From Spongiactinospora gelatinilytica (GTDB lineage: Bacteria > Actinomycetota > Actinomycetes > Streptosporangiales > Streptosporangiaceae): a stretch of DNA of 32,421 nucleotides. This document shows, one piece after another, positions 6,736 through 29,779 of this stretch; position 1 is the first letter of the stretch, and each line of letters opens with the position of its first letter. The position numbers and the translations under genes were made by a program. The notes under the pieces were generated by a model. It made no database searches and had not been told where the DNA came from. It saw nothing but the letters and a program-made list of their open reading frames with translations. The stretch covers positions 1-32,421 of the forward strand of contig NZ_POUA01000035.1 in NCBI RefSeq assembly GCF_003236385.1, read 5' to 3'.

Positions 6736-7421
6736 GTCCGCGCAGGCAGATCGCGCCCGGCGCGGTACACGTGCCGGGCTGGCTGTCCCCTGACGAGCAG
6801 CGCGACCTCGTGGCGGCGTGCCGGGCGTGGGCGACCGGGCCGGTGCCGATCCGGCACACGGTCCTGCCCCGGGGCGGTGTCATGTCGGTACAGACGGTCT
6901 GCGTCGGCTGGCACTGGCGGCCGTACCGGTACACCCGCACCGCCGACGACGTGAACGGCGCCCGCGTGGCGGAGTTCCCCCGCTGGATGGTGGGCCTCGG
7001 CCGCCGCGCGCTGGTCGCCGCCTACGGGGAGCACGACGGCTACACACCGGACACCGCCCTGATCAACTTCTACGACGGCGCGGCGAAAATGGGCATGCAC
7101 CAGGACAAGGACGAAAAGTCCGACGCTCCCGTGGTCTCGCTCAGCATCGGTGACACCTGCACCTTCCGCTTCGGCAACACCGAGACCAGGAGCAAGCCCT
7201 ACACGGACCTCCTCCTGGCCTCGGGCGACCTGTTCGTGTTCGGCGGCCCGTCCCGGTACGCCTATCACGGTGTCCCCAAGGTCCACCCCGGCACCGCCGA
7301 CCCGGCCACCGGGCCGGCCCGCGGCCGGTTGAACATCACCATGCGGGTGACCGGCCTGGCCGATCCGCTACGGGGTCATGGTGACGGGGATCTCGATGAT
7401 CGGTTGCCGTCCGCCGGCTGA
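6732..7421 (+). CDS. alkB: AlkB-type DNA/RNA repair dioxygenase
   Basis: 229 residues. AlkB enzymes oxidise 1-methyladenine and 3-methylcytosine with Fe(II), O2 and 2-oxoglutarate, releasing formaldehyde. The Fe ligands are visible: HxD at His123/Asp125 (MHQDKDE) and His179 (AYHG). The family signature RxNxTxR is present as RLNITMR (199-205) and binds 2-oxoglutarate. INFYDGAAKMGMHQD matches the classic N-Y-Y-G-x-x-x-x-M-x-x-H-x-D block. The ATG at 6732 is chosen over a GTG at 6723 because GGGAGGGG lies upstream and it forms an ATGA overlap with the previous stop. The final ~18 codons overlap the 3' end of the convergent subtilase gene by 54 bp. Confidence 0.93.
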   Translation: MSPRRQIAPGAVHVPGWLSPDEQRDLVAACRAWATGPVPIRHTVLPRGGVMSVQTVCVGWHWRPYRYTRTADDVNGARVAEFPRWMVGLGRRALVAAYGEHDGYTPDTALINFYDGAAKMGMHQDKDEKSDAPVVSLSIGDTCTFRFGNTETRSKPYTDLLLASGDLFVFGGPSRYAYHGVPKVHPGTADPATGPARGRLNITMRVTGLADPLRGHGDGDLDDRLPSAG

Positions 7422-10334: not shown

Positions 10335-10382
10335 TTCTTTCTCCTTCGCGCGGAAACATGATCTTTCCATCGATGTCGAAGG

Positions 10383-10388
10383 AATGTA
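10383..10388 (-). promoter_or_regulatory. Candidate -10 of subtilase copy 1
   Basis: TACATT on the minus strand, 48 bp upstream of the GTG, inside an AT-rich stretch. The same TACATT hexamer, followed by a TTCCTTCG-like stretch, lies upstream of the other two copies (12438-12443 and 15123-15128). It fits the actinobacterial -10 pattern TANNNT. TTGATC 16 bp further upstream could be the -35. Confidence 0.4.
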
Positions 10389-10470
10389 ACTCGGTTTTGC
10401 AATTGATCAAAGCTGTTTTCTGGCTAAATGATCGAAAATCGGTGGATGCAATTCTTGTTGATGGTGATTT

Positions 10471-10506
10471 GCGCGGCGTATGGGACGGAGGCCGTGTACG
10501 CCGCGC
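10471..10506 (-). terminator. Hairpin terminator behind subtilase copy 2
   Basis: Perfect inverted repeat with 10-bp arms GCGCGGCGTA and TACGCCGCGC and a 16-nt loop, starting about 28 bp past the ancestral stop of the broken copy 2. No U-tract follows, which is common for actinomycete terminators. Confidence 0.6.
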
Positions 10507-10533
10507 TCTCACATGAATGCCTTCAGGGCGTCG

Positions 10534-12397
10534 TCACTCGGGCGCGGTGACGGTCACTGGGATCTCGATGGTCGGTTGTCGTTCGCTGGCTGGTGGGTTC
10601 CGGCTCTGACCTGGCCGCGGTAGGTGCCGTCTTCACGGGTGGTGAAGGCGGCGACGTGCGGGAATTCCACGGTCGCGCCGGCCAGGGGTTGGCCGTCGTT
10701 GGCGTCGGTGACCTTCCCGCGTACCACGCCGTAGTCCTTGGCGGTGAAGGTCAGGCTCTGCCCGTCGCGGATGGACGGGGTGTCGAAGGAGTACTGGAAG
10801 GCGTCGGTGCCGTCGGCGTTCTCGATGCCGATCGTGGCGCTGCTGCCCTGTTCGACCGCTGTGTCGATGTCCTTGTAGCGGTAGCCGATCGTGCCGTCCT
10901 CACCGAGCAGCACGGAGAACGACATGAGCTCGAAGGTGTCCGCCTGCGGTCTGATGTCACGCCACTCGATCACGAAGGACCGATGCGGAGCCGTGCCCAC
11001 GGTGGCGGTGTAGATCCCGGACTGCGCCTCCAACCGCAGGTCGTCCCAGAAGGGATAGACGGCGAGGTTGGGCTCCAACGGTTCCGGCAGGGGTTCATTG
11101 TCGAACACGACCTCACCGGCGAACGAGGCGAAGCCCACGGTGGTCACCCAGATCCGGGACCTGGACTCCCCGTAGAACGGCACCGGGAACGGCAGCGCCA
11201 CCTCCTGCCCCGCCCCGGGAACGACGGTCAGCGGCTCGGTGCCCGCCACGTAGGGCTCGGTGCCGCTGGTGCAGGTGTAACCGAAGTCGTCCCGCTTCAC
11301 CGTCAGGTCGAAGTCCTTCGTCACGCTCCCGGCCACGGTGATGTCCGCGGTCGCGGTGCCGGCGCAGTGCGAGGCGCCGGCGACGCTGAGCTGGTAGGAG
11401 CCGTGCGGGAGGGTCAACTGGTAGCGGCCGGAGCCGTCGGCGACGGCCTTGACCGGAGTGCCGGACGCGATGACCGTGGCATCCTTCTCGGGGTCGCCGC
11501 CCGCGGTGATGGTGCCGCTGACGACGGCTTCCGGCTTGCGGGGTCGGTCGGTGCGAGCATCCACTCGCCTGCCTTGATCTTCCCGTCCTGCGAGTTGTTC
11601 GCGGAGGTGGCGATCCACTTGGCGCCTGGCGCGACCCCGATGCCGTTCTCGCCGGCGATGATGCCGGCCACATGGGTGCCATGCCCTGTGTAGTCGCACG
11701 GGGCGCCCGTGGAGCAGGACCGGCCTGGGTCGTACCAGCTGTAGTCGTGGTCCACCGTGCCGTCCGGGAGGTTGCCGCGGTATCGCCCGGCGAGGTCCGG
11801 ATGGCCGATGTCGACCCCGCTGTCGATGATGCCGACGACGATGTCCTCGCCCCGGTCGTTCAGTTCGTCCCACACGCGCGGGGCCTTGATCCGGTCGATG
11901 TTCCACTCGACCGCGGCGGCTTCGGCCGCAGCCTTGCCCGGCTTCGGCCGCGGTTTCGGGGCTTGGTCCCTGCGGATGGGATCGAGGGCGGCGACCTCTG
12001 GCAGGGCGGCGATCTCGTTCGCCAGTCTCGGGCCGGCGGTGACCTTGACGGCGTTGACGATCCAGAACGGTTCGTGCTCGGCCTTCCGTTCGGTCAGCAG
12101 TTTTCGCAGCCGGGCCTGGGACCTGCCCGCGTGCGCGGTCAGGGCTTCGTGCACCGCCTTGGCCCTGGCGTCCTTCGTGGTGGCCCGGCGGGCGGCGCCG
12201 AGATCGGCCTCATCGCCGAGGCGGACGAAGAAGGTGGCCTTGCCGTCCTTCAGGTCCGTGCGCACGGCGACGGCGATCTTCTCGGCGCCGGGTTCGGCGT
12301 GCGCCGGGACCGGTGGCAGGAGAATGGGGAGAAGGGTGAGCAGCCCGGTCAGCGTCCGGCTGAGGGACCGATGCCATAAGGGATGGAAGACGCGCAT
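10534..12397 (-). pseudogene. Decayed S8 subtilase (copy 2), two internal deletions
   Basis: Clear paralog of copies 1 and 3, broken in two places. The N-terminal frame runs from a signal peptide (AHA-EP) through the propeptide, the Asp (IIDSGVD) and His (GHGTHVAG) motifs to GEWMLAPTDP, then shifts frame near 11548. The sequence resumes in another frame at KPEAVVSGTI, which in copy 1 lies ~0.8 kb further on, so the Asn and Ser motifs are gone. A second deletion of ~320 bp joins VRAGTH to a shifted remnant reading RQPTIEIPVTVT, matching the end of copy 1; its ancestral stop is at 10534-10536. At the start, alignment with AAGGAG-N6-GTG of copy 1 gives AAGGGA-N6-GTC at 12389-12391, so the start codon may also be lost; ATG 12397 is the nearest alternative. 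It cannot make an active protease. Confidence 0.9.
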
Positions 12398-12437
12398 TCC
12401 CTTCATGCTGGGGAGGAACTTCATCCCGGCCGAAGGA

Positions 12438-12443
12438 AATGTA
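12438..12443 (-). promoter_or_regulatory. Candidate -10 of subtilase copy 2
   Basis: TACATT followed by TCCTTCG, aligned with the element upstream of copy 1. The flanking sequence is AT-rich and partly alignable with copy 1 (TTTTCG...ATTTAG and CAATTG blocks), so the promoter was duplicated with the gene. Confidence 0.35.
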
Positions 12444-12567
12444 TCCCAAAACAATTGACTTTCCAGATGTCCGCTCGTCTAAATACGCGAAAAGCGGCGG
12501 AGGCGATTCTGCTGAATTTGCTCGCGGAGTGCGACGGGCACGGCCCGCCGCACCTCGCGGGCGGTCC

Positions 12568-15081
12568 TTACGGTCGCGTCCGGCGTGGGGCGGCCGGGGG
12601 TGCGGTGAAGGTCAGGCTCTGGCCCTCACTGATCGCGCGGACGTTGTAGGAGTACTCGAAGGCGTCGCCGCCGTCCTCGTTCTCCAGGCCGACCGTGGCG
12701 CTGAGGCCCTGGTCGCGCCAGGCGTCGATGTCCTTGTAGCGGTACCCGATCGTGCCGTCCTCGCCGAGCAGGACCGAGAACGACAGACGCCGGTCACCCT
12801 GGTCGTCGAAGGTGACGTTCCGCCATTCGATGACGAACGACCGGTGCGGGGCGGTGCCCACCGTGGCCGTGTAGACCCCGGCCTGCGCGTCCACCCAGAG
12901 GTTGTCCCAGAAGGGGTAGACGGAGAGGTTCGGGATACCCGGGTTGGGCAGCGGTTCGTTCTCGACTGCCGCGTCGGGCTCGATGAACGAGGCGTACCCC
13001 TTGGCGGTGACCCACAGGTCCGAGCGCGCGGTGCCGTAGAACGGCACGGGGAACGGCAGGGTCAGCCTCTCGACCAGCTTCGTGTCGATCTGGGTGAGGC
13101 GCTGGGTGCCCGCGACGTACGGCTCGGTGCCGCTCGTGCAGGTGTATCCGAAGGCGTCGCGCCGCACCTGCAGATCCACGTTCCTGGTCACGCTGCCGGC
13201 CACGGTGATCTGCTCGCTCGCGGTGCCCACGCAACGCGAGGAGCCGGCGATCTCCAGCCGGTAGGAGCCGTGCGGAAGGCCGAGCCGGTAGTGGCCCGCG
13301 GCGTCGGTGACCGCCTCGGCCGTCGTACCGGCCACCTTCACCGTGGCGCCCTGCTCGGGGACGCCTGCCACACTGATCGTCCCGGAGACGAGGCCATGCG
13401 GCCGCAGGGTCAGAGCGAGGTCGGCGGTGGTGGTCTGACCGGCGACGATGGTCACCGATGTGGTCGCGGGGGAGTATCCGAACCGCGACGCGCCGAGCTG
13501 GTAGGTGCCGGGAGGCAGGCGCAGGACGGAGTAGGCGCCCTGGCCGCCGCTGGCCGTCGTACGGCCGAGCGGGCCGGTGACCGTCACGTCGGCCTCGGGC
13601 AGGGGCGCGCCGTTCGCCGTCGTGACCGTCCCGAACAGCGTTCCGAGCGGGTCGTCGGGCGCGGCCTGTACGGCGGCGTAGGCGTCCAGCCGCCCCTCCC
13701 CGTAGACGTTGTTGTCCTGGGACGTCCCGCCGCACGTGGTGTCGTCCCCGTCGATGGCGATGCCGTCGAGCAGCGTGCGTACGGCGGCGACGTCACCGCG
13801 CAACGAGGGCGCGGCGGACAGGATGAGCGCGACCGTCGCGGCCACGTGCGGCGAGGCCATCGAGGTGCCACGTATGACGGAGTAGCCGCCTTCGGGGATC
13901 GATGAGCGGATATTGTCCCCTGGCGCGGAGATGTTGGGCTTGATCTCGCCGTTCTCGCCGGGGCCGCGGCTGGAGAAGCTCGCCGCCGCGTCGTCCGCGC
14001 CGAACGCGCCGGCGGCGTAGCTCTCGGTGTACATCCCGGGGGAGTGGCTGGTGCCGCAGGCAGGCCCGTCGTTGCCGATGGCGAACATCGGGAAGATGCC
14101 CGCGTCCACCCACGCGCTGATGACCGTCTCGTACCAGTCCTTGTACCCCTTGCCGCCCCAGGAGTTGTTGATGATGTCGGGGGCCAGGTCGGGCCGGGGG
14201 TTCTGGCCGTTCACGTCGGTCGGCGCGAGCATCCACTGGCCGCCCGCGAGCAGCGCGGCCTCGTCGCAGCAGCCCCCGGCGGCGATCCACCTGGCGCCGG
14301 GGGCGACACCGATGCCGCTCTTGCCGACGACGGTGCCGGTCACGTGCGTGCCATGGAAGTGGGGGTCGCACGGGGCGGCGCTCGGGCACAGCCCCTCGGG
14401 CGCCGTCCAGTTGTAGTTGTGGTCCATGAAGCCGTCGGCCCTCGTGCCGCGGTACTGTCCCGCGAGCTCCGGGTGCTCGATGTCCACGCCGCTGTCGATG
14501 ATGCCGACGACGACGCCCTCGCCCAGGTTCTTGAGCTCGCTCCACACCCGGGGCGCGCCGATGCGGTCGATGTTCCACTCGAGCGCGCCGACCTTCGCCT
14601 GGGCCTTGCCCGGCCGCGGCTTCGGCGGCTCGGCCTTCCCGATCGGCTCGATGGCGGTGACCTCGGGCAGGGCCGCGATCTCCTTGGCCAGCTCCGCGCC
14701 GGCGGTCACCTTGACGATGTTGGCGATCCAGAACGGGGTGTGCTCGGACTTCCGTTCGGTCAGCAGTTTCCGCAGCCGGGCCTGGGACCGGTTCGCGTGT
14801 GCGGTCTTGGCCGCGTACACCGCCCTGCCCTTGGCCGGCTTGGTGGCGGCCCTGCGGGCGGCCGAAACGTTCGCCTCACCGGCGAGGCGGACGAAGAAGG
14901 TCGCCTTGCCGTCCTTCAGATCGGTGGCGACCGCCTTGGCGATCTTGTCGTCGCCGGGGGAGCGGTACGGCACGGCGTGCGCCGTACCCTGGGGGAACAA
15001 CAGGCCGACAGCGGCCACCAGGCCGATGAGCAGCCGGACCGGGCTCCGGCGCGAGGCCGGTGACCGTAAGTGATGGGACAC
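12568..15081 (-). CDS. Secreted S8 subtilase, short form (copy 3)
   Basis: 837 residues. Signal peptide ending AHA-VP, I9-like propeptide (~45-150), S8 domain with Asp196 (IIDSGVD), His243 (FHGTHVTG), Asn337 (AIGNDG) and Ser407 (GTSMASPHVA), then two regulatory-like beta domains and the nidogen-like region. It ends right after GQSLTFTA with a short Pro/Arg tail and lacks the third regulatory-like domain and BACON-like domain of copy 1. The GTG start has AAGGAG 5 bp upstream. A CC pair (GGCCDE) between His and Asn is not found in copy 1. All catalytic residues are intact, so it should be an active extracellular protease. A small GC hairpin at 12543-12562 just past the stop may act as a terminator. 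Confidence 0.92.
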   Translation of the reverse strand: MSHHLRSPASRRSPVRLLIGLVAAVGLLFPQGTAHAVPYRSPGDDKIAKAVATDLKDGKATFFVRLAGEANVSAARRAATKPAKGRAVYAAKTAHANRSQARLRKLLTERKSEHTPFWIANIVKVTAGAELAKEIAALPEVTAIEPIGKAEPPKPRPGKAQAKVGALEWNIDRIGAPRVWSELKNLGEGVVVGIIDSGVDIEHPELAGQYRGTRADGFMDHNYNWTAPEGLCPSAAPCDPHFHGTHVTGTVVGKSGIGVAPGARWIAAGGCCDEAALLAGGQWMLAPTDVNGQNPRPDLAPDIINNSWGGKGYKDWYETVISAWVDAGIFPMFAIGNDGPACGTSHSPGMYTESYAAGAFGADDAAASFSSRGPGENGEIKPNISAPGDNIRSSIPEGGYSVIRGTSMASPHVAATVALILSAAPSLRGDVAAVRTLLDGIAIDGDDTTCGGTSQDNNVYGEGRLDAYAAVQAAPDDPLGTLFGTVTTANGAPLPEADVTVTGPLGRTTASGGQGAYSVLRLPPGTYQLGASRFGYSPATTSVTIVAGQTTTADLALTLRPHGLVSGTISVAGVPEQGATVKVAGTTAEAVTDAAGHYRLGLPHGSYRLEIAGSSRCVGTASEQITVAGSVTRNVDLQVRRDAFGYTCTSGTEPYVAGTQRLTQIDTKLVERLTLPFPVPFYGTARSDLWVTAKGYASFIEPDAAVENEPLPNPGIPNLSVYPFWDNLWVDAQAGVYTATVGTAPHRSFVIEWRNVTFDDQGDRRLSFSVLLGEDGTIGYRYKDIDAWRDQGLSATVGLENEDGGDAFEYSYNVRAISEGQSLTFTAPPAAPRRTRP

Positions 15082-17888: not shown

Positions 17889-18305
17889 TCAGCCGGGGAC
17901 GAGGGTGGGGGAGGCGGCGGCGCCCTGGGCGCAGGCGGCGTTGGGATAGTGGGCGTGGAAGCCGACGATGCGGCCGTGCCAGCTTCCGCGGATCTCGACG
18001 CGGACGGGGGTGTGGCCGCCGACGCAGCGGGCGGATCGGTAGCGGGCGCGTAGCAGGCCCAGGTCGCCATCGATGGCGCGCAGGTGGTCGCAGGCCCTGC
18101 GGGCCTCGGGATGGGTGCCGCCGTCGGGGTCGCAGAACAGCGACCAGTGGCGGGTGTGGTCGGCGATGAGGTCGTGCCGGGTGATGCCCAGCATGGACTG
18201 GGGGACCTTGGCCTGTGCGGGGAAGGCGGCGGCGAGGGCGGCGGCGGCCACGGCCGCCGCCGAGAGGGTGACCACGCCGCGGACCGGCGGGCGGGCGGTT
18301 GACAC
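17889..18305 (-). CDS. SSI-family secreted subtilisin inhibitor
   Basis: 138 residues. GTG at 18305 with AGGAGGT 5 bp upstream; earlier starts have no ribosome site. Signal peptide with cut after AQA (Ala32). The mature part has the SSI (I16) pattern: CDPDGGTHPEARRACDHL and four Cys (58, 72, 94, 125) for the two SSI disulfides, then GSWHG and HYPNAAC. SSI proteins block secreted subtilases by a reactive loop CPMVYDPV. The same loop here is CVGGHTPV, so the P1 residue (Met in SSI) is Gly96, unusual for a subtilisin inhibitor. The three subtilases upstream in the window are possible partners, but binding is inference. Confidence 0.82.
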   Translation of the reverse strand: MSTARPPVRGVVTLSAAAVAAAALAAAFPAQAKVPQSMLGITRHDLIADHTRHWSLFCDPDGGTHPEARRACDHLRAIDGDLGLLRARYRSARCVGGHTPVRVEIRGSWHGRIVGFHAHYPNAACAQGAAASPTLVPG

Positions 18306-18400
18306 GGGCCACCTCCTAGCGGTAATACTCACAGTCACTTTACCACTACGAGGAGTTCTCATGAAGTGCGGCCCGCCGCCCGCGCCCCGCGAGACTGAAC

Positions 18401-18435
18401 GGCCCCGCGCCACGGGGTCACCGTGGCACGGGGCC
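18401..18435 (-). terminator. Hairpin terminator of the CHAP gene
   Basis: Inverted repeat of 15-bp arms (14 pair), GGCCCCGCGCCACGG against CCGTGGCACGGGGCC, with a 5-nt loop, ~60 bp past the CHAP stop and upstream of the SSI-like gene. Confidence 0.7.
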
Positions 18436-18496: not shown

Positions 18497-19144
18497 TCAG
18501 GCGGCGTAGTCGGGGTAGCCGTAGCCGACCACCTGGCTGGTGGGCCGGGTCCGGACCTCCACCTTGCCGTTGCCCGTGTTGCCCTCGATGGTCTTGATGG
18601 TTCCGTTGCCGTTGTCCTGCACGACGAAACCGACGTGGTCGATGTCATCGAAGCGCTTGCCGCCGTTCCAGCCGAAGAACACGACCGCGCCCGGCTTGGG
18701 CGCCGTGCCCCAGCGCTGGTTCTCGTTGAACCACTTGGCGTGCGTCACGGTGTAGGCGTCCCATCCGACGGAGGGACGGACGCCCAGCTCCTCGCCGACC
18801 CAGGAGACGAACATCGCGCACCAGGGCGCGTTGGCGTACGCGTTCACGCTGCCGCCGTCACGGGCGACCGTCTCCAGGGCTCGCCGAGAGGACATGTACC
18901 ACTCATGGAACTTCGTGCCGCCGCCGGCGGCGTTCTCGCTGACGCCGACCTGCGAAAGGGCCAGGTTGATGACGTCCTGGGCCTTGACGGCCCGCTGGGT
19001 CTGGGTTGTGGCCGCCTTGGTGTCGGTGGGGGTGTCGGCGTGCGCGGCCTGCACACCGGTCAGGGCGCCGGCGAACACCGCGGTGCCCAGCGCGGCGCCG
19101 AGCAGTCGGGTCTTCCCGGCATGGGCGATCCGATGAAGGAACAT
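18497..19144 (-). CDS. Secreted CHAP-domain peptidoglycan hydrolase-like protein
   Basis: 215 residues. Signal peptide (hydrophobic ~12-34, cut near AHA-DT), a helical linker, then a CHAP domain with catalytic Cys109 (NAPWCAMFVSW) and His170 (DIDHVGFVV), followed by GTIKTIEGNT, typical of actinobacterial CHAP proteins. CHAP enzymes cleave peptide cross-links or amide bonds in peptidoglycan. ATG 19144 is chosen because AAGGAG lies 7 bp upstream. A c-di-AMP riboswitch ends immediately before this ribosome site, so expression is tied to a second messenger that signals wall and osmotic state. Confidence 0.88.
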   Translation of the reverse strand: MFLHRIAHAGKTRLLGAALGTAVFAGALTGVQAAHADTPTDTKAATTQTQRAVKAQDVINLALSQVGVSENAAGGGTKFHEWYMSSRRALETVARDGGSVNAYANAPWCAMFVSWVGEELGVRPSVGWDAYTVTHAKWFNENQRWGTAPKPGAVVFFGWNGGKRFDDIDHVGFVVQDNGNGTIKTIEGNTGNGKVEVRTRPTSQVVGYGYPDYAA

Positions 19145-19157
19145 AGGGGGACTCCTT

Positions 19158-19320
19158 GCTTCCATGCCGCCTACCGGGTTAGCTGACGGGTTCGGGCCTG
19201 GAAGTCGGCCCTACGGCTGGCCGCCCGAAGGCGGGCCTTGCCGATTCACCCCATGGGAGAGGTTGGGTCCCCGGCTCCGCGTATCGCGGACTCGGCGGTT
19301 GCGCCCCGGCTGGAGGGGGT
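19158..19320 (-). promoter_or_regulatory. c-di-AMP (ydaO/yuaA) riboswitch
   Basis: The minus strand carries the hallmark blocks in order: CCGCCGAGTCC, GGAGCCGGGGACCCA, GGGGTGAATC, a GCCCGCC-TTCG-GGCGG stem, GTAGGGC, then CGAACCCGTCAGCTAACC and GGTAGGCGG. These are the most conserved parts of the ydaO RNA class. It sits directly upstream of the AAGGAG of a secreted wall-enzyme-like gene, a known target type in actinobacteria (e.g. rpf genes). Boundaries are approximate. Confidence 0.92.
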
Positions 19321-19480: not shown

Positions 19481-19534
19481 TGTTCACTGAGGCTTCCCGT
19501 GCTCGTAATCCCCCGTGGTTAGGGTGATGGCGTC

Positions 19535-20605
19535 GTGAACGGGTCATCACCCGGCGTGGAGGACGGTCGGCGGCGCCACGTGCGGGAGCAGGGGTCGGCC
19601 GTGGCCTGGGTGGAGTCACCGCTGCAGATGCTCTGCGCCGTGGAGGCCCACCATGCAGGCCTTCTCGGAAGCGGGACGCGCATCGTGCCGCGGGCCAAGC
19701 TTCCTGCCCTCGCCGCCACCCGACGTGAACTCAACCGCCTGGGCCTACCTGCGCATTCCGTGATCGATTCAGCTCAAAGCGAAATGCCGCGGCCCATGCG
19801 TGGGGGCACCTGGGTGGTGGGCGACGCCTTCTCCGGCAAGGTCCAGTTGCGCCTGCTGGCCGGTACGGGACGCCGCGTGGTCATCGTCGATGACGGCCTG
19901 GCCACCATCCGCCTGCTCGAACTTCTCAGCGGCCACGCCCTGCCGCCCCTGCTGCGCGCCCGCCCGGTGCGCTCCGGCCCGGTCCGCGGCCTCCTGCGCT
20001 CGGCGCTGGGCAGGGCCGCCGGCCTGCGGCTGCGCCTGGCCGCCCGCCGGGGCAGGCTCTCGGTGTTCACCGCGCTGCCCGTGCCCGCCGAGCTGGCCGA
20101 CGCCGTACGCGCGACCGGCGCCGAGCTGCTGACCCACGACTTCCCATGGCTGCGCGCCCGGCCCGACGAGCCCACCCAGCCGGGCGAGCGCACCATCGTC
20201 CTCGGCACCTCGCTGGTGCGCAACGGCCTGGTCCACCGCGACCCCTACCTGTGCTGGCTGGCCGGCCTGGCCGAACGCAACCCCGTCGCCTACTTCCCGC
20301 ACCGCCGCGAGGACCCCGCCGACCTCGACCTGGTCAGGGAGCAGCCGGGCGTCCACGTGTACGACGGCGGGGCCCCCGCCGAGATCACGCTGCGCGGGCT
20401 GTCTCAGGGACAGCGCGTGGTGAGCCTGCCGTCCACGGCCGTGACCTCGCTGCGGGTGCTACTGTCCCCGCGCGGCGTGCCCGTGGAGACCGTTGATGTG
20501 CCCGACGAGTGGTGGACCGCCGACGCGGCGCCGTCCCTGCGTTCGCACCTGCAGATGTTCGCCCATCACGATCACGGCACTCACGACATTGGAGTCACAT
20601 CTTGA
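19535..20605 (+). CDS. Sialyltransferase-clan-like glycosyltransferase
   Basis: 356 residues with no signal peptide. Not a well-known family, but three motifs recall bacterial GT-B sialyltransferases (GT38/GT52/GT80): an early VESPLQMLCAVEA, like the SPLQ/TPFQ start of GT52 and polysialyltransferase-like proteins; an acidic-acidic-Gly motif VDDG (119-121) that supplies the base; and YFPHRRE (~253-259) followed by VVSLPSTAVTSL (~295-306), resembling the HP and Ser/Thr motifs that hold CMP-sugar. Start GTG 19535 is weakly supported (AGGGTGA ~10 bp upstream; TAGGGT could be a -10 for a near-leaderless message); later GTGs are possible. Its stop overlaps the next start, so the two are co-translated. 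Confidence 0.65.
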   Translation: MNGSSPGVEDGRRRHVREQGSAVAWVESPLQMLCAVEAHHAGLLGSGTRIVPRAKLPALAATRRELNRLGLPAHSVIDSAQSEMPRPMRGGTWVVGDAFSGKVQLRLLAGTGRRVVIVDDGLATIRLLELLSGHALPPLLRARPVRSGPVRGLLRSALGRAAGLRLRLAARRGRLSVFTALPVPAELADAVRATGAELLTHDFPWLRARPDEPTQPGERTIVLGTSLVRNGLVHRDPYLCWLAGLAERNPVAYFPHRREDPADLDLVREQPGVHVYDGGAPAEITLRGLSQGQRVVSLPSTAVTSLRVLLSPRGVPVETVDVPDEWWTADAAPSLRSHLQMFAHHDHGTHDIGVTS

Positions 20606-21819
20606 AAGTCCTGGCGGTGGCCGACTCGGACTCGTATCTGAAGTGGGCCGCGTGCCTTCTCGACGGGCTCCCCCCAGGTGACGAGGCACTGCTCACCCTG
20701 ATCAGGACCCCGATCGCGCCCTCTTCCGGGCAGATCACCGCCGCCGTCGCGGGGACCCGCGCCGCGGCCGGGGAGGGCCTGCCCGAGGTGCTCACCGCCC
20801 GGCGGCTGCGCCGGGCCGCCGAACGGTTCACCCCCGACGCGGTACTGCTGGCCTGCACCGGCCCGGTGGTCGACGTGCTGTGCGCCGAGACTCTGGAGGG
20901 CCTGCGCCCCCGCCCGGTGTTCTTCTCCGGGCTGCCCGGCATCTCCGTGCCCGCCACCGACAAGGCGTGGCGGTTCCGCAGCGGCTGCGACCTGTTCATC
21001 GTGCACAGCACCCGCGAGGTGCGCGAGTTCTCCGCGCTCGGCGCCGAACTCGGCGGCGGCGGCGCGGTCGGCCTGGCCAGGCTGCCCTTCCTCGGCCAGG
21101 GCGCGGCCGGCCGGGCCTCCGGCCCCCGCGACCGCGTGGTGTTCGCCACCCAGGCCAAGGTGCCCAAGCGGCGCGAGGAGCGCGAGTCGATCCTGCTGGC
21201 CCTCGCCGAACTGGGGGAGCGGCGGCCCGACCTCGACGTGGTGGTCAAGCTCCGCGCCCGCGACACCGAACGCCAGACGCACAACGAGCGCTACCACTAC
21301 GAGCGGCTGTGGATGGAGCTCGCCGCCCAGGGCCGGGTCCGCGGCGGAGCCGTGCGGTTCGCCGACGGGCCGATGCACGAGCACCTGTCCAGGGCGGCCG
21401 GGTTCGTCACCGTCAGCTCGACCGCCGCGCTGGAGGCCATCGCCGAGTCGGTGCCGCTGCTGGTCCTCTCGGACTTCGGGGTCAGCGCCGAGATGATCAA
21501 CCTGGTGTTCGAGGACAGCGGGTGCCTGGGCGACCTCGACGAGCTGGCCAAGGGCGTCTTCCGCGAACCGGACGCCCGGTGGTGCCAGGCCAACTACTTC
21601 CACCACGAGAGCGCGGCCGACTGGCACCCCCGGCTCACCGCCCTGGCCGAGGACGCCCGCGCCGGGCGGCTCGTCCCGGCGCGGTCCCTGCTGCACAGCG
21701 CCGCCGACGTCGCCGCCCGCCGCCGGGCGCGGATGCGCATAGAGGTGCCGCCCGGCATGCTGCGCGTGGGCTACCGCGCCAAGCGGCGGGTGCGCCGCTA
21801 CCTCAAGTCCATCGGCTGA
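20602..21819 (+). CDS. Putative GT-B glycosyltransferase (DUF6716-like)
   Basis: 405 residues. It starts with TTG at 20602, with GGAG 7 bp upstream and a cTTGA overlap with the previous stop; a GTG 93 bp higher would lie inside the upstream gene. LKVLAVADSDSYLKWAA opens an N-terminal Rossmann lobe. The second lobe has VFATQAKVPKRREER, VVVKLRARD and TVSSTAALEAIAESVPLLVLSDFG, the SSTAALEA pattern shared with capsule and teichoic-acid GT-B transferases that bind a phosphate or nucleotide. Basic C-terminus (RAKRRVRRYLKS) may contact the membrane. Role inferred: adds or initiates a sugar in a surface polymer together with the neighbouring nonulosonic acid genes. Confidence 0.72.
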   Translation: MKVLAVADSDSYLKWAACLLDGLPPGDEALLTLIRTPIAPSSGQITAAVAGTRAAAGEGLPEVLTARRLRRAAERFTPDAVLLACTGPVVDVLCAETLEGLRPRPVFFSGLPGISVPATDKAWRFRSGCDLFIVHSTREVREFSALGAELGGGGAVGLARLPFLGQGAAGRASGPRDRVVFATQAKVPKRREERESILLALAELGERRPDLDVVVKLRARDTERQTHNERYHYERLWMELAAQGRVRGGAVRFADGPMHEHLSRAAGFVTVSSTAALEAIAESVPLLVLSDFGVSAEMINLVFEDSGCLGDLDELAKGVFREPDARWCQANYFHHESAADWHPRLTALAEDARAGRLVPARSLLHSAADVAARRRARMRIEVPPGMLRVGYRAKRRVRRYLKSIG

Positions 21820-21839
21820 CCCGGCGAGGGCGGGAGAGG

Positions 21840-23129
21840 TCAGGGCAGGGCGCGGGCGAGCTTGCGGCGCAGGCGGGCGAGAGCGCCCGCGCCCAGCCGG
21901 GCCTCGGCCGGCGCCAGTTCGAGCGCCGACAGGCGCTGCCGCTTGAAGTACGGTCCGGCGCCCGCCTCCGCCAGGTAGGCGGCGGCGGTGTCGCGCAGTC
22001 CGGGCAGGACCGTGCTCTGCATGCAGTAGCCGACGGAATGGATCAGCGGCGTGATCTGCTGCTCGGTGAACGCCGCGTCCAGCAGCGACCCGTCGGGTAG
22101 CAGCCGGGGCACCGTGGCGTCCACGATGGTGACCGGGATGCGGTTGCTGTTCTCGTACGGCGTGAGCCGTTCCAGCACCAGCTCGCTGCCCATGGTGGCG
22201 ACCGGAGCCCCGAAGTACCGCTTGGCGGTGAGCAGCGCCGTGGAGAAGCAGCCGACCACCAGCGACGGCTTCAGCGCCGCGACGCACACCTCCGCCGGGA
22301 CCGCCTCGCCCGCCACCGCCAGCCGTACGCCGAGGTCGTCGGCGACCTGCCGGAGCTGCTGGGCGTGCCTGCGCCCGGCCGCCGGGTGCGGTTTGAACAC
22401 CACCTGCTCATGCCCCCTGGCGGCCAGCGCGCGCAGCATCGACGCGTGCAGGTCGGCCTCCTTTTGGGCGGTCACGATGTCCAGGGCGGAGAGGTACTGG
22501 CCCAGGATGAGGGCATCGCCCTCGACGTCGTCCGGGCAGTACTCGGCCACCTGGTCCACCACGGAGGTGAACGCACTGCCGGGAAGGGCCTCGGCGGGCA
22601 CGCCGTGCTCGCTCAGCAGCAACGGCGAAAGGCCGGGCACCAGGTCGAGGTAGAGCAGCCGGGTCAGCCGGCCGGAGATCTCCAGTGGCAGCGGGTTGCG
22701 GGTCGGGCCGTAGCTCATCAGGCCGTCGGAGTAGACCGTGACCGGGCACTCGCGTATCAGGCCCGCGATGGTGCGGGCGGGCGGTACCGCCAGCGACTCC
22801 ACCACCAGCTCGGCCGGGCCGTCGCCGAGCGACAGGTGCGCGGCGATCAGCCGGCTGAGCATCGGGACCTCGATGACCCGCGCCTTCCAGTCCGACGGGT
22901 GCAGCGGGGAGACCAGCTCGTTCCACGACCACACCTCGTCGAAGCGGGCGCGCAGGGCGGCGAAGCCCGGTGTCTGGTCCAGCGGGGTCGCGACCTCCGG
23001 GATGGCCGCGTTGTTGGACACCAGCAGGATGCGCCGGTTGCCCTCGTGCTCGCCGAACCGCCCGCTGTCCATCGCGGCGGCCAGCGTCATCGCCCCGAAC
23101 AGGGTCGAGGCGTAGAAGACCTGGATCAT
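21840..23129 (-). CDS. Polysialyltransferase-like glycosyltransferase
   Basis: 429 residues. The sialyltransferase-clan motifs are well kept: TVYSDGLMSYG (D/E-D/E-G type, Ser134-Asp135-Gly136), VFKPHP (246-249, the HP motif that contacts CMP) and VGCFSTALLT (294-300, Ser/Thr motif). This order and spacing fit GT38-type polysialyltransferases, which add CMP-sialic acids to a growing chain at the membrane. IQVFYASTLFGAMTLAAAM is the first Rossmann segment, not a signal peptide. ATG 23129 has GGAGG 4 bp upstream and overlaps the GT2 stop (ATGA), so the genes are coupled. Convergent with the plus-strand GT gene, 20 bp between stops. Confidence 0.8.
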   Translation of the reverse strand: MIQVFYASTLFGAMTLAAAMDSGRFGEHEGNRRILLVSNNAAIPEVATPLDQTPGFAALRARFDEVWSWNELVSPLHPSDWKARVIEVPMLSRLIAAHLSLGDGPAELVVESLAVPPARTIAGLIRECPVTVYSDGLMSYGPTRNPLPLEISGRLTRLLYLDLVPGLSPLLLSEHGVPAEALPGSAFTSVVDQVAEYCPDDVEGDALILGQYLSALDIVTAQKEADLHASMLRALAARGHEQVVFKPHPAAGRRHAQQLRQVADDLGVRLAVAGEAVPAEVCVAALKPSLVVGCFSTALLTAKRYFGAPVATMGSELVLERLTPYENSNRIPVTIVDATVPRLLPDGSLLDAAFTEQQITPLIHSVGYCMQSTVLPGLRDTAAAYLAEAGAGPYFKRQRLSALELAPAEARLGAGALARLRRKLARALP

Positions 23130-24112
23130 GCGTCCTCCGGTGCGGGCCGGTAACGGGACGGGGGAAGACGGGGCACTTCGGGGACCAGCGCGCGCAACGC
23201 GTCCTCGCGTTCGCCCGTCAGATGGGACAGTGTCCGGGCGAGCAGGTCGGTGGGAAGCCGGCGCAGCGCGTCGGTGCCCCGCTCGACGAACCTGGCGCGC
23301 AGCTCGGGGGTGAAACGGTCGAGCAGCTCCAGGTGGTGGGCGAGCAGCGCGCACATCATGCGCACCGCTTTGGGCAGGTACTGCGGCTCGTCGGCCAGAT
23401 CCTTGAAGATCAGGTCGAAGGCGTCGAAGAAGTGGAGCTGCCGCTCGTCGCCGACCTGGGTGAGCGACCCGGGCACCAGCCGGCGGTAGAACAGGCCGTG
23501 CAGCGACACCACCGAGAAGGACCGGGTGTGGCGGTGCAGCCGCCAGATCCACGGCCGGTCCTCGGCGGTGTGCAGGTGCCCGGGGAACTGCAGCAGGTCG
23601 CCGAGTTCCCTGCGGTAGATCCCGGCCCACGCGTAGGGGTAGTCCACCATGGTCTTGATGTCCGCGGGCATGATCCCGTCGCGAGGGTCGAGCACCACGC
23701 CCCGCCGGGCCTGCGGCGCCCGGTGGATCACCCGCTTGCGGCCCTCGGCCTGTACGTGGTCCACGCGCAGGAAGTCGCAGCCGAGGGCCTCGATGGCCGC
23801 CACCAGGTCGCTCAGGTAGCCGGGGGCGAGCCAGTCGTCCCCGTCCATGAACGTCAGGTAGCGGCCGGAGGCCAGGGACAGCCCCAGGTTGCGCGCGTCG
23901 GCCAGGCCGACGGGGCTCGGGTTGCGCAGCACCGACAGTCCGGGGAGCTCCCCCCGGAAGTCGTCGATGATGGCCCCCGTGCCGTCCACCGAGCCGTCAT
24001 CGACCACGATGAACTCGAAGTCCCGTCTGGCGTTCCTGGCCAGGGACGTGAGGGCGTCGGCGAGATACGCCTCCCCGTCGCGGATGGGCACGATGACAGA
24101 GAGGGTGATCAA
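23126..24112 (-). CDS. GT2-family glycosyltransferase
   Basis: 328 residues. N-terminal GT-A domain: SVIVPIRDGEAYLADAL, FEFIVVDDGSVDGT (nucleotide-binding Asp38/Asp39), LADARNLGL and LTFMDGDDW, with the metal-binding DxD at 90-92. The C-terminal half (~200-328) is a helical domain often seen in polymer GT2 enzymes. The start is TTG at 24112 with AAGGA 5 bp upstream; longer frames to 24259 run into the upstream gene and are Pro/Arg-rich. 31 bp after the trifunctional gene and overlapping the polysialyltransferase-like gene, so one operon. It probably transfers a hexose to the nonulosonic acid polymer or its linker; the acceptor is unknown. Confidence 0.88.
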   Translation of the reverse strand: MITLSVIVPIRDGEAYLADALTSLARNARRDFEFIVVDDGSVDGTGAIIDDFRGELPGLSVLRNPSPVGLADARNLGLSLASGRYLTFMDGDDWLAPGYLSDLVAAIEALGCDFLRVDHVQAEGRKRVIHRAPQARRGVVLDPRDGIMPADIKTMVDYPYAWAGIYRRELGDLLQFPGHLHTAEDRPWIWRLHRHTRSFSVVSLHGLFYRRLVPGSLTQVGDERQLHFFDAFDLIFKDLADEPQYLPKAVRMMCALLAHHLELLDRFTPELRARFVERGTDALRRLPTDLLARTLSHLTGEREDALRALVPEVPRLPPSRYRPAPEDA

Positions 24113-24143
24113 GGCTGTCCTTCGTGGCGGTGGCCGGGGTGGT

Positions 24144-26213
24144 TCACACTGTGACGCGGCGCAGGCGGGCCTTGGGGGCCTCCTCACCGGGGAAGACGCG
24201 CTTGACGCCGTCTCCGAGCGCGGTCTCGATGATACGGATGTCGCGGACCAGGTGCTCAAGGCCGACCGGCTCCAGCGAGGCGGCGTGGTCCGAGCCCCAC
24301 ATCGTGCGGTCCAGGGTGATGTGCCGCTCGACGGCCACCGCGCCCAGGGTCACCGCGGCCAGCGAGATCTGCAGCCCCCGCTCGTGGCCGGAGTAGCCGA
24401 CCGGCACGCCGTACCGCTCGCGCAGGGTGACGATCGTGCGCAGGTTGGCCTCCTCCGGCGGGAGGGGGTAGGTGGAGGTGGAGTGCATCAGGATCAGCCG
24501 CGAGGTGCCGACCACCTCGACCGCCCGGTCGATCTCCGGCAGCGTGGACATCCCGGTGGACAGGATGATCGGCTTGCCGGTGGCGGCCAGCGCGCGCAGC
24601 AGTTCCAGGTCGGTCACGCAGGCCGAGGCCACCTTGTGGGTGACCACGTTCATGCTCTCCAGGAACTCCACCGAGGGCACGTCCCACGGGGAGGCGAACC
24701 ACTGCAGGCCGCGCTCCTCGCAGTACTTGGCGATCTGGGTGTACTCGTCGGTGCCGAACTCGGTCCTGAGCTTGTACTCCATGTACGTCATCTCGCCCCA
24801 GGGCGTCTGCCTGATCTGGCCGCGCTGCTCCAGCGGGACGCAGATCTCCGGGGTGCGCTTCTGGAACTTCACCGCCTGGCAGCCGGCGTCGGCGGCCACG
24901 TCGATGAGCCTGCGGGCGATGTCGATGTCGCCGTTGTGGTTGATGCCGATCTCGCCGATCATGTAGACCGGCCGGCCGGCGCCCACCGGAACGTCGCCGA
25001 TGAGCACCTCGGACGGCGAGCGGGGCGGCACACCGGCGGCGACCGGCGCGACGTCCAGGGTGCCGTCGGCCTGCGGACGCGCGGCGAGCACCCGGTCGCA
25101 CAGCTCACGTACGGCTCCCGCGCCCCCCGCGCGGCTGAGCACGACCCGCGCGACGGCGCGGACCTCGGGGTGCGCGTCGGGCACCGCGATCGGCCAGCCG
25201 ACCTCGCCCATCGGACCCAGGTCGTTGACGTCGTTGCCGACGTAGGCCACCCGCGCCGGGTCCAGGCCCTCGATGGCCAGCCAGTCGCGCAGCACCGTCC
25301 GCTTGTCGGCCAGCCCCTGCAGGACCGGCACGCCGAGCTTGCGGGCGCGGGCGGCGACCACCGGGTTGTGCTCGGTGGACATCACCAGGATCTTGACGCC
25401 GGCCCTGCGCAGCAGCGCGATGCCCATGCCGTCGGAACGGCTGACCGCGACCGTCTCGCGGCCGTCCTGGTCGACGTAGGCGCGGTCGTCGGTGTGCACC
25501 CCGTCGAAGTCGGTGATCACGGCGTCCACGTCCAGCGGCTCCGGCACGTCCACGAACGGGGCCAGCGCGCGTACCAGCTCCAGGTCCGCCGGGCCGTCCA
25601 CCTCGATGGCGTGACCGGGATCGACCGGCTGCACGGCGACCGTGCCGAAGAACCGGTGGCCGTGCTCGCGCAGCCCGGCCGTGCGCATCACGTAGAAGGC
25701 GCCGGTCTCGCGGTACTGCGGCTCGCGGTCCTGGCGCCGCCGGCGTACCGCCGGGTCGTGGTTGATGCCCGCGCCGCTGGTGCTCCACAGGAACTCGTGG
25801 GTGGCGAGGCCGGAGAACACCGCGTCGGCTTCGCCGCCGGCGACCTTGCCGATGGCGGCGTCAAGGTGGGCGGGGTCGATGAAGGCGCTGGTGCACTGGA
25901 CCAGGACCACGATCTCCGGCTCCTGCTGCCCGGCGGCGGCGCGCTCGTCCAGCGCGTGCAGCACCGCCGACTCGCTGGAGGCGGTCGCGCCGGCCAGGTC
26001 GGCCGGCCGCTCGACGACCTGTGCCCCGGCCTCCCGCGCCACGTCCGCGATACCCGCGTGGTCGGTGCTCACCACGACCTCGTCGACCAGCCCGGCCCGG
26101 ACGCAGGCTCGCACGGCGCGCGCCACCAGCGGCATGCCGCCCACCTTCGCCAGGTTCTTGAGCGGTACGCCCGCAGAGCCGCCGCGGGCGGGGACAACGG
26201 CCAGTACTCGCAA
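24144..26213 (-). CDS. Trifunctional CMP-nonulosonate enzyme (cytidylyltransferase-HAD-NeuB)
   Basis: 689 residues in three domains. About 1-220: acylneuraminate cytidylyltransferase (AVVPARGGSAGVPLKNL, STDH, VQCTSAFI, RETGAFYVM). About 229-380: HAD phosphatase of the KDO8P/KdnB type (ITDFDGVHTD with Asp235/Asp237, VMSTEHN, LADKRTVL, YVGNDVNDL). About 410-689: NeuB-type synthase TIM barrel (IGEIGINHNGD, VKFQKRTPE, STGMST, GYSGHERG, ERHITLDR). The usual C-terminal SAF (antifreeze-like) domain is missing. Together these give PEP condensation, dephosphorylation and CMP activation in one chain, as needed for Kdn via Kdn-9-phosphate, although Neu5Ac-9-P remains possible. TTG 26213 is chosen because GAGGAG lies 6 bp upstream; ATG 26243 has none. 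First gene of the operon. Confidence 0.88.
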   Translation of the reverse strand: MRVLAVVPARGGSAGVPLKNLAKVGGMPLVARAVRACVRAGLVDEVVVSTDHAGIADVAREAGAQVVERPADLAGATASSESAVLHALDERAAAGQQEPEIVVLVQCTSAFIDPAHLDAAIGKVAGGEADAVFSGLATHEFLWSTSGAGINHDPAVRRRRQDREPQYRETGAFYVMRTAGLREHGHRFFGTVAVQPVDPGHAIEVDGPADLELVRALAPFVDVPEPLDVDAVITDFDGVHTDDRAYVDQDGRETVAVSRSDGMGIALLRRAGVKILVMSTEHNPVVAARARKLGVPVLQGLADKRTVLRDWLAIEGLDPARVAYVGNDVNDLGPMGEVGWPIAVPDAHPEVRAVARVVLSRAGGAGAVRELCDRVLAARPQADGTLDVAPVAAGVPPRSPSEVLIGDVPVGAGRPVYMIGEIGINHNGDIDIARRLIDVAADAGCQAVKFQKRTPEICVPLEQRGQIRQTPWGEMTYMEYKLRTEFGTDEYTQIAKYCEERGLQWFASPWDVPSVEFLESMNVVTHKVASACVTDLELLRALAATGKPIILSTGMSTLPEIDRAVEVVGTSRLILMHSTSTYPLPPEEANLRTIVTLRERYGVPVGYSGHERGLQISLAAVTLGAVAVERHITLDRTMWGSDHAASLEPVGLEHLVRDIRIIETALGDGVKRVFPGEEAPKARLRRVTV

Positions 26214-26237
26214 AATGGACTCCTCGTGGAATGTGTT

Positions 26238-26247
26238 CGGCATGCCG
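26238..26247. promoter_or_regulatory. Palindrome in the leader of the nonulosonic acid operon
   Basis: CGGCATGCCG, a perfect 10-bp palindrome, 24 bp before the TTG start. Operator function is speculative. The rest of 26214-26395 holds no gene. Confidence 0.25.

Positions 26248-26465: not shown

Positions 26466-29779
<3,314 letters not shown>

Follow-up and report, generated by a model that had tools for sequence, protein, structure and literature searches.

The question raised by this locus is what two unlike proteins, both with the look of sialyltransferases, are doing close together in an actinobacterium, and in particular whether one of them starts a sugar chain that the other extends. Both are encoded in a stretch of 32,421 nucleotides (nt) of Spongiactinospora gelatinilytica (contig NZ_POUA01000035.1, positions 1 to 32,421 of the forward strand), which is called the window below. 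Their open reading frames (ORFs) of 356 and 429 amino acids (aa), here named P0001 and P0003, lie where the original prediction had placed them. It is considered fairly probable that they belong to a phosphate-starvation locus for a wall polymer containing the nonulosonic acid Kdn, in which the core enzyme for Kdn transfer is P0001, from a family so far unrecognised, and P0003 together with a GT2 glycosyltransferase is an add-on. The locus is known in kind and its newness is the P0001 family. Five genes fill positions 19535-26243 (SCO numbers are those of Streptomyces coelicolor):

19535..20605, plus strand: P0001, 356 aa, GT-B sialyltransferase-like protein of no Pfam or NCBIfam family; counterpart of SCO4882 by gene order
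20602..21819, plus strand: P0002, DUF6716 putative glycosyltransferase (PF20471, E 1.1e-130)
21840..23129, minus strand: P0003, 429 aa, PF07388 polysialyltransferase-family protein; counterpart of SCO4877 by gene order
23126..24112, minus strand: P0004, GT2 glycosyltransferase (PF00535, E 5.9e-31); counterpart of SCO4878
24144..26243, minus strand: P0005, fusion of NeuA, HAD phosphatase and NeuB; counterpart of SCO4880 and SCO4881

The motifs from which the likeness was proposed are present in both proteins and in the proposed order: VDDG (residues 118-121), PHRRE (255-259) and LPST (298-301) in P0001, SDG (134-136), KPHP (246-249) and FST (295-297) in P0003. Their conservation was followed in the best 80 of at least 522 confirmed relatives of P0001 and in the surrounding loci. 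The P0001 alignment (A4) holds 38 proteins, namely P0001, 33 of the 34 non-redundant sequences from the 80 relatives (mutual identity <78%, identity to the query <=90%, length 250-480 aa; the one left out, from locus L058, lies at a contig end) and four earlier ones, while that of P0003 (A5) holds 29 (P0003, 24 and 4) and that of P0002 (A6) holds 34 (P0002, 30 of 33, and 3). The loci were picked with two peptide patterns, A[WF][VA]ESP[LV]Q[LM] and GD[AP]FS[GR][KRY][VA]Q, a choice that by itself accounts for part of the conservation seen at the pattern sites; the patterns exclude D-D-G, H-R-R, E283 and the Ser/Thr pair.

In the P0001 family D119, D120, G121, H256, R257, R258 and E283 are invariant (38/38) down to about 29% identity. 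Position 300 is S in 35 and T in 3 of the 38 sequences, and position 301 is T in 25 and S in 13. A base motif of the D/E-D/E-G type is therefore present throughout as D119-D120-G121, and so are the Ser/Thr pair and a candidate ribose-binding Glu, the residue roles being proposed by analogy with the GT38 polymerase MhPST. What the original prediction had read as an HP motif in P0001 is actually H-R-R, the residue after the invariant His being Arg in every member. The codons concerned are:

19889..19897, plus strand: Asp119-Asp120-Gly121, proposed catalytic base motif, kept in 38/38
20300..20308, plus strand: His256-Arg257-Arg258, proposed catalytic acid motif (H-R-R instead of H-P), 38/38
20381..20383, plus strand: Glu283, proposed ribose-binding Glu, 38/38, paired with P0003 Glu280 in hhalign
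20432..20437, plus strand: Ser300-Thr301, proposed phosphate-binding pair, conserved among the 38 members as given above

In the P0003 family H248, P249, E280, S296 and T297 occur in 29 of 29 sequences, so that the HP motif, the Ser/Thr pair and the Glu of the ribose-binding type are all found. The D/E-D/E-G motif is not, as S (18 sequences) or A (11) is followed by D135 (28/29) and then by Gly; the putative catalytic base Asp is kept and the acidic residue before it is not. The N-terminal domain carries a second invariant His-Pro (H77-P78, 29/29) within residues 75-78.

Motif order alone is weak evidence and could be due to chance. Among 143 proteins of 300-500 aa, taken from the window and 26 related loci with the homologs of P0001 and P0003 excluded, the loose order was found in 27, with similar spacing in 3, and with the extra Glu also demanded in none, the patterns having been fitted post hoc. 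A chance origin, which the order by itself would allow, is opposed by conservation across relatives, and it is because the motifs are conserved in both the P0001 and the P0003 families that they are credible.

With regard to family membership the two proteins differ. The 429-aa protein can be placed, being a member of PF07388 (A-2_8-polyST; E 4.6e-28, 99.1 bits vs a cut-off of 23.3, residues 3-313 on profile positions 1-314 of 316), as are 28 of its 28 aligned relatives. Three Herbidospora genomes (with loci L061, L062 and L100) each carry a second P0003 relative of about 50% identity on another contig. The 356-aa protein had been said to lack a clear family, and this holds: P0001 matched no Pfam family at E up to 10 and no NCBIfam model. 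PF07388 gave no match for 37 of the 38 P0001 family members, one of the 37 aligned relatives reaching E 0.11, and PF07922 (GT52) matched none of the 38. The PF07922 profile also had no match in 149 actinobacterial genomes, which is uninformative as 14 control genomes gave none either. Sequence searches of PDB chains with P0001 and P0003 singly and with the profiles A1, A2 and A3 returned nothing meaningful. No functional assignment for P0001-type (SCO4882) or DUF6716 proteins was found in the open-licence literature searched, and the P0001 family appears to be a sialyltransferase-clan family with H-R-R for HP that is undescribed there.

The predicted folds bring the two proteins closer together. 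The model of P0001, built from 16 sequences, reached a pLDDT of 83.7 and a pTM of 0.83, and that of P0003 a pLDDT of 91.8. A fold other than GT-B for the 356-aa protein, named beforehand as the outcome that would speak against the idea, was not seen, the model being GT-B. In Foldseek against PDB, ranks 1-4 of P0001 were the GT52 lipooligosaccharide (LOS) sialyltransferase of Neisseria (PDB 2yk4-2yk7; E 1.1e-06 to 4.9e-06) and rank 7 was GT38 MhPST, with plant uridine diphosphate (UDP)-glycosyltransferases interspersed. The likeness to the Neisseria enzyme is limited by TM-scores of 0.29-0.37, a root-mean-square deviation (rmsd) of 17-18 and 13-14% identity. By VIA-align the best match of both models was MhPST (PDB 5wc6; another entry is 5wcn), with Z 16.1, 296 aligned residues and rmsd 4.8 for P0001 (next 13.7, plant enzymes) and Z 18.8, 311 residues and rmsd 4.5 for P0003 (next 14.8). 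Chains of GT80 occur in the Foldseek and VIA-align lists, GT52 is absent from the 50 VIA-align rows per model, and no GT97 or GT99 chain stands among the rows listed, which excludes nothing.

According to a passage of PMC5517516, E153 of MhPST is the catalytic base with E152 adjacent, H291 stabilises the leaving cytidine monophosphate (CMP), E323 binds the ribose, and S339 and T340 bind the phosphate. The same order of base Asp/Glu, His, ribose Glu and Ser/Thr is found in P0001 and P0003, and the extra invariant Glu of each family (E283 and E280), absent from the original prediction, stands where MhPST has its ribose-binding Glu. The distances from His to Glu and from Glu to Ser are 32 and 16 residues in MhPST, 32 and 16 in P0003, and 27 and 17 in P0001. 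In other respects the proteins are unlike MhPST: identity to both is 10-12%, there is no sequence-profile match, P0001 is without the Pro of HP, and P0003 has S/A-D-G rather than two acidic residues. When the two families were compared by hhalign, their C-terminal domains aligned with H256/H248, E283/E280 and S300-T301/S296-T297 in register (probability 53%). Under a different column setting the score of 32.5 lay above all 60 column-shuffled controls (at most 23.6) and above the reversed profile (20.7). Because of the shared fold match, the residue pattern and the in-register profile alignment, P0001 and P0003 are judged to be probable distant relatives within the sialyltransferase clan, and no Pfam or NCBIfam model takes in the P0001 family. 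That both proteins are sialyltransferase-like is in this way upheld by predicted GT-B folds and by a profile alignment that is weak in itself. The predicted use of a CMP-nonulosonate by P0001 is the best supported part of the interpretation.

Which of the genes belong together was read from their co-occurrence. At each of the 80 loci a gene was called absent if no blastp match at E 1e-6 lay in a stretch of up to 10 kb on either side. DUF6716 was found in 77 loci, P0005 (NeuA/NeuB) in 67, GT2 in 56, P0003 in 55 and all five genes in 54. P0003 is always accompanied by GT2 (55/55), and in 53 of the 55 loci P0003 and P0001 are on opposite strands. For the 13 loci without P0005, nine genomes were searched and eight of them carry P0005 together with P0003, the ninth being that of Nocardiopsis sp. 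CNT312; the sequence of the other four loci (L053, L058, L064, L083) stops at most 0.6 kb downstream of the gene. Twelve minimal loci hold P0001 and NeuB, with neither P0003 nor GT2 matched in the stretch examined; eleven of them have a NeuA match and eleven have DUF6716, the twelfth, without DUF6716, being a 6.3-kb contig. Nine of these twelve genomes are without any P0003 match genome-wide. Around the minimal loci of Herbiconiux (L104) and Frigoribacterium (L107) the scan covered 10 of 15 and 8 of 21 called ORFs and met no additional glycosyltransferase. Apart from the cassette these are mostly housekeeping, transport and regulatory genes, among them a GDSL-type lipase and a UDP-sugar dehydrogenase in the former and a phosphate transporter (PHO4) in the latter. 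The P0001 family spans several actinobacterial orders. Among 198 actinobacterial genomes, that of the window included, P0001 is found and DUF6716 exceeds its cut-off in the identical seven, two further genomes have DUF6716 matches below it, and PF07388 exceeds its own in six of the seven and in one other. Co-occurrence favours P0001 and DUF6716 as the core set and P0003 and GT2 as an add-on pair.

The two sialyltransferase-like genes had been described as facing each other; they are indeed convergent, and between them lies the DUF6716 gene, which had been overlooked, so that they do not face each other directly. P0001 starts with GTG. The TTG start of P0002 overlaps the stop of P0001 (TTGA) and the stop of P0004 overlaps the start of P0003 (ATGA), and these overlaps suggest two translationally coupled pairs, P0001-P0002 and P0004-P0003. 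P0004 probably starts at a TTG (24112), the longest ORF beginning at 24259. P0001 is 94% identical to a protein of Spongiactinospora rosea.

The nature of the polymer is suggested by comparison with other actinobacteria. In Table 1 of PMC8269224 five genes of Planobispora rosea (P. rosea) are listed as Pho-activated: the hypothetical proteins EV45_RS15220, RS15225 and RS15230 (equated with SCO4882, SCO4879 and SCO4877), the GT2 gene RS15235 (SCO4878) and the sialic acid synthase RS38880 (SCO4880). NeuB is named SCO4881 in a passage of PMC2367054, and the genes SCO4873-SCO4882 are termed teichulosonic acid genes in one of PMC13011467, which credits Ostash et al. 2014. Teichulosonic acid is described, in the published passages at hand, as the major wall glycopolymer of S. 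coelicolor and linked to SCO4873-SCO4882, the polymer being composed of galactose (Gal) and Kdn (passages of PMC11481543 and PMC7831098). At the locus of P. rosea JCM 3166, which is maybe another strain than that of the table, the order is P0001, P0002, P0003, P0004, P0005. In a Streptomyces albospinus locus (L111) the order polysialyltransferase, GT2, DUF6716, NeuA, NeuB, P0001-like equals that of SCO4877 to SCO4882, as does the order in locus L027. By gene order and products, as distinct from S. coelicolor sequence identity, the five-gene locus corresponds to SCO4877-SCO4882, the gene set being shared with S. coelicolor and P. rosea. As a difference, NeuA-HAD forms a fusion with NeuB in Spongiactinospora, where P0001 lies directly upstream of DUF6716.

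Since the locus matches a published Pho-regulated teichulosonic acid region by gene order, polysialic acid is a less likely product than a mixed Gal/Kdn polymer with Kdn as the sugar. The assignment to Kdn is drawn from the S. coelicolor parallel and from the finding that no NeuC exceeds the cut-off in the genome (63.4 vs 235.9 bits needed), a result that is at most consistent with Kdn. P0005 carries the domains of NeuA, the CMP-nonulosonate synthetase (PF02348, E 5.4e-21), and of NeuB, the nonulosonate synthase (PF03102, E 5.8e-82), and models for KdsC and KDN-9-phosphatase matched it, both under their cut-offs.

Phosphate control may be expected in the genus from this parallel, and upstream of P0001 stands a repeat that resembles a PHO box imperfectly:

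19482..19503, plus strand: PHO-box-like stretch upstream of P0001, with GTTCAC 53 nt before the GTG start

The PHO core of S. coelicolor is GTTCACC, as given in a passage of PMC4415409. The upstream regions of the window and of 60 relatives at >=55% identity (start codons of the relatives chosen by script) were compared as 61 rows. GTTCAY-N5-GTT lies within 120 nt upstream of the start in 55 of them and GTTCAY at exactly -53 in 38; GTTCAY at -80..-10 occurs in 46 vs a shuffled mean of 1.5, the rows being mutually related. The second 11-nt unit of the window reads CTTCC and is degenerate; across relatives it is mostly GTTCC or GTTTC without the conserved CA, and the copy of the window is weaker. 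The 22-nt PHO consensus score upstream of P0001 was 17, a value reached by 194 of 500 shuffles, so that the region stood out by positional conservation and not by this score.

Taken as a pathway, phosphate shortage would lead the cell to make a phosphate-free wall polymer of the teichulosonic acid type, with a nonulosonic acid that is most likely Kdn. The P0005 fusion would make CMP-Kdn, and P0001 is predicted to transfer Kdn from this donor as an inverting GT-B enzyme, with Asp120 acting as base on the acceptor hydroxyl and His256, followed by two Arg and no Pro, stabilising the leaving CMP, while Glu283 would hold the ribose and Ser300 and Thr301 the phosphate. P0001 probably works with the DUF6716 protein as a core pair, and P0003 with GT2 may be a further module, responsible for a second linkage or repeat, for example by placing Kdn onto a sugar added by GT2. 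A wider claim is put forward tentatively, with the balance tipping just against it: P0001 would be the founding member of a new GT-B nonulosonate transferase family in which H-R-R stands for HP, and together with DUF6716 and NeuA/NeuB it would be a minimal self-contained machinery to which the PF07388 enzyme is accessory. Such a machinery, free of P0003 in Microbacteriaceae and relatives, could supply the surface polymers of actinobacteria with Kdn or an acid like it.

Against the assignment of P0001 as core Kdn transferase a number of findings have to be set. The Pro of HP is missing from the whole P0001 family, and the sequence of P0001 found no match among solved sialyltransferases, the best hit (E 0.51) being an unrelated protein. 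The first 15 Foldseek rows of P0003 are non-sialyltransferases, GT80 appearing from rank 16 and MhPST at rank 22. Since plant UDP-glycosyltransferases, UDP-GlcNAc 2-epimerases and antibiotic glycosyltransferases also reach Z 12-15, the donor cannot be read from the fold by itself. The hhalign probability is no higher than 53% and drops to 12.6% with the other column setting. Nocardiopsis sp. CNT312 has a P0001 relative with D-D-G, H-R-R and the Glu (L094, 10001-10933) and genome-wide no P0005 or P0003 match, and three of the twelve genomes with minimal loci have a P0003 match elsewhere, one of 39% and partial, two weak (27-30%). Five of the seven genomes in which P0001 and DUF6716 co-occur are of one genus, so the seven are not independent, and P0001 is patchy, being present in 10 of 41 close genomes (that of the window included), all of the window's family. 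The P0005 fusion is below the cut-off of every NCBIfam model matched, and for this reason Kdn is not proved. Elsewhere in the genome of the window another full-length NeuB domain (G000:C123:7888-8610, minus strand; 263.8 bits) lies within a frame of 687 aa, and a second nonulosonate pathway is possible.

Three other explanations were weighed. The starter-and-extender idea of the original prediction would have P0001 attach the initial sialic acid to a primer, with P0003 extending it to an alpha-2,8 homopolymer of polysialic or poly-Kdn acid, in keeping with the family of P0003, named for alpha-2,8-polysialyltransferases, and with a GT38 polymerase as its best structural match. The Pfam name is not equal to an activity, though, and because GT2 accompanies P0003 in every locus a mixed repeat is better suited; the related S. 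coelicolor polymer, as the passages on its composition cited above describe it, contains Gal and Kdn and is no homopolymer. This division of labour is regarded as quite unlikely. The core Kdn transferase could instead be the DUF6716 protein, with P0001 as its partner or as a GT-B transferase that uses a different donor, and here co-occurrence cannot separate the two because DUF6716 accompanies P0001 in 7 of 7 genomes and in 11 of 12 minimal cassettes. Against this reading, the invariant and near-invariant positions of DUF6716 include no acidic-acidic-Gly, HP or H-R-R, and its profile aligns with neither P0001 (2.0%) nor P0003 (0.7%), while P0001 shares its CMP-site pattern with P0003. Such an exchange of roles is regarded as unlikely.

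Very unlikely, finally, is a likeness of both proteins to sialyltransferases in fold only, the chemistry of P0001 having been lost or changed with H-R-R and some other CMP- or UDP-sugar being used. The replacement of HP in 38 of 38 members fits such a change, and the GT-B fold is common to many UDP-sugar enzymes; the P0001 family has kept D-D-G, H, E and S/T, and 67 of the 80 loci have a NeuA/NeuB match, 12 of these with no P0003 and GT2 there. On the whole the original observation is confirmed in part and its interpretation supported in part, and the assignment of P0001 as core Kdn transferase is the one preferred.

Were it true, each enzyme of the pathway would gain a testable role, an actinobacterial family of several orders would gain a function, and the PF07388 enzyme, by its name presumed to be the main sialyltransferase, would be an accessory. 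To our knowledge Kdn-adding enzymes are scarce as laboratory tools. The transferases of SCO4873-SCO4882 are unassigned in the literature read, and three of the five P. rosea genes in the table cited above are entered as 'hypothetical protein' (PMC8269224).

The surroundings of the locus in the window can be described briefly. Back to back with the promoter region of P0001 stands a CHAP-domain gene (18497-19165, minus strand) with a c-di-AMP (ydaO/yuaA) riboswitch at its start (19153-19307, minus strand, 80.8 bits). A subtilisin-inhibitor-like gene lies at 17889-18413 (minus strand), and a tandem of three subtilase (S8) genes occupies 7368-15081 (minus strand). The middle subtilase (10554-12454) looks broken because it is spread over two frames and its Peptidase_S8 match is restricted to positions 1-95 of the 288 of the profile. 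On the other side of the locus a protein of 1084 aa (26466-29720, minus strand) combines thermolysin (M4) and M28 peptidase domains with a terminal CBM5/12.

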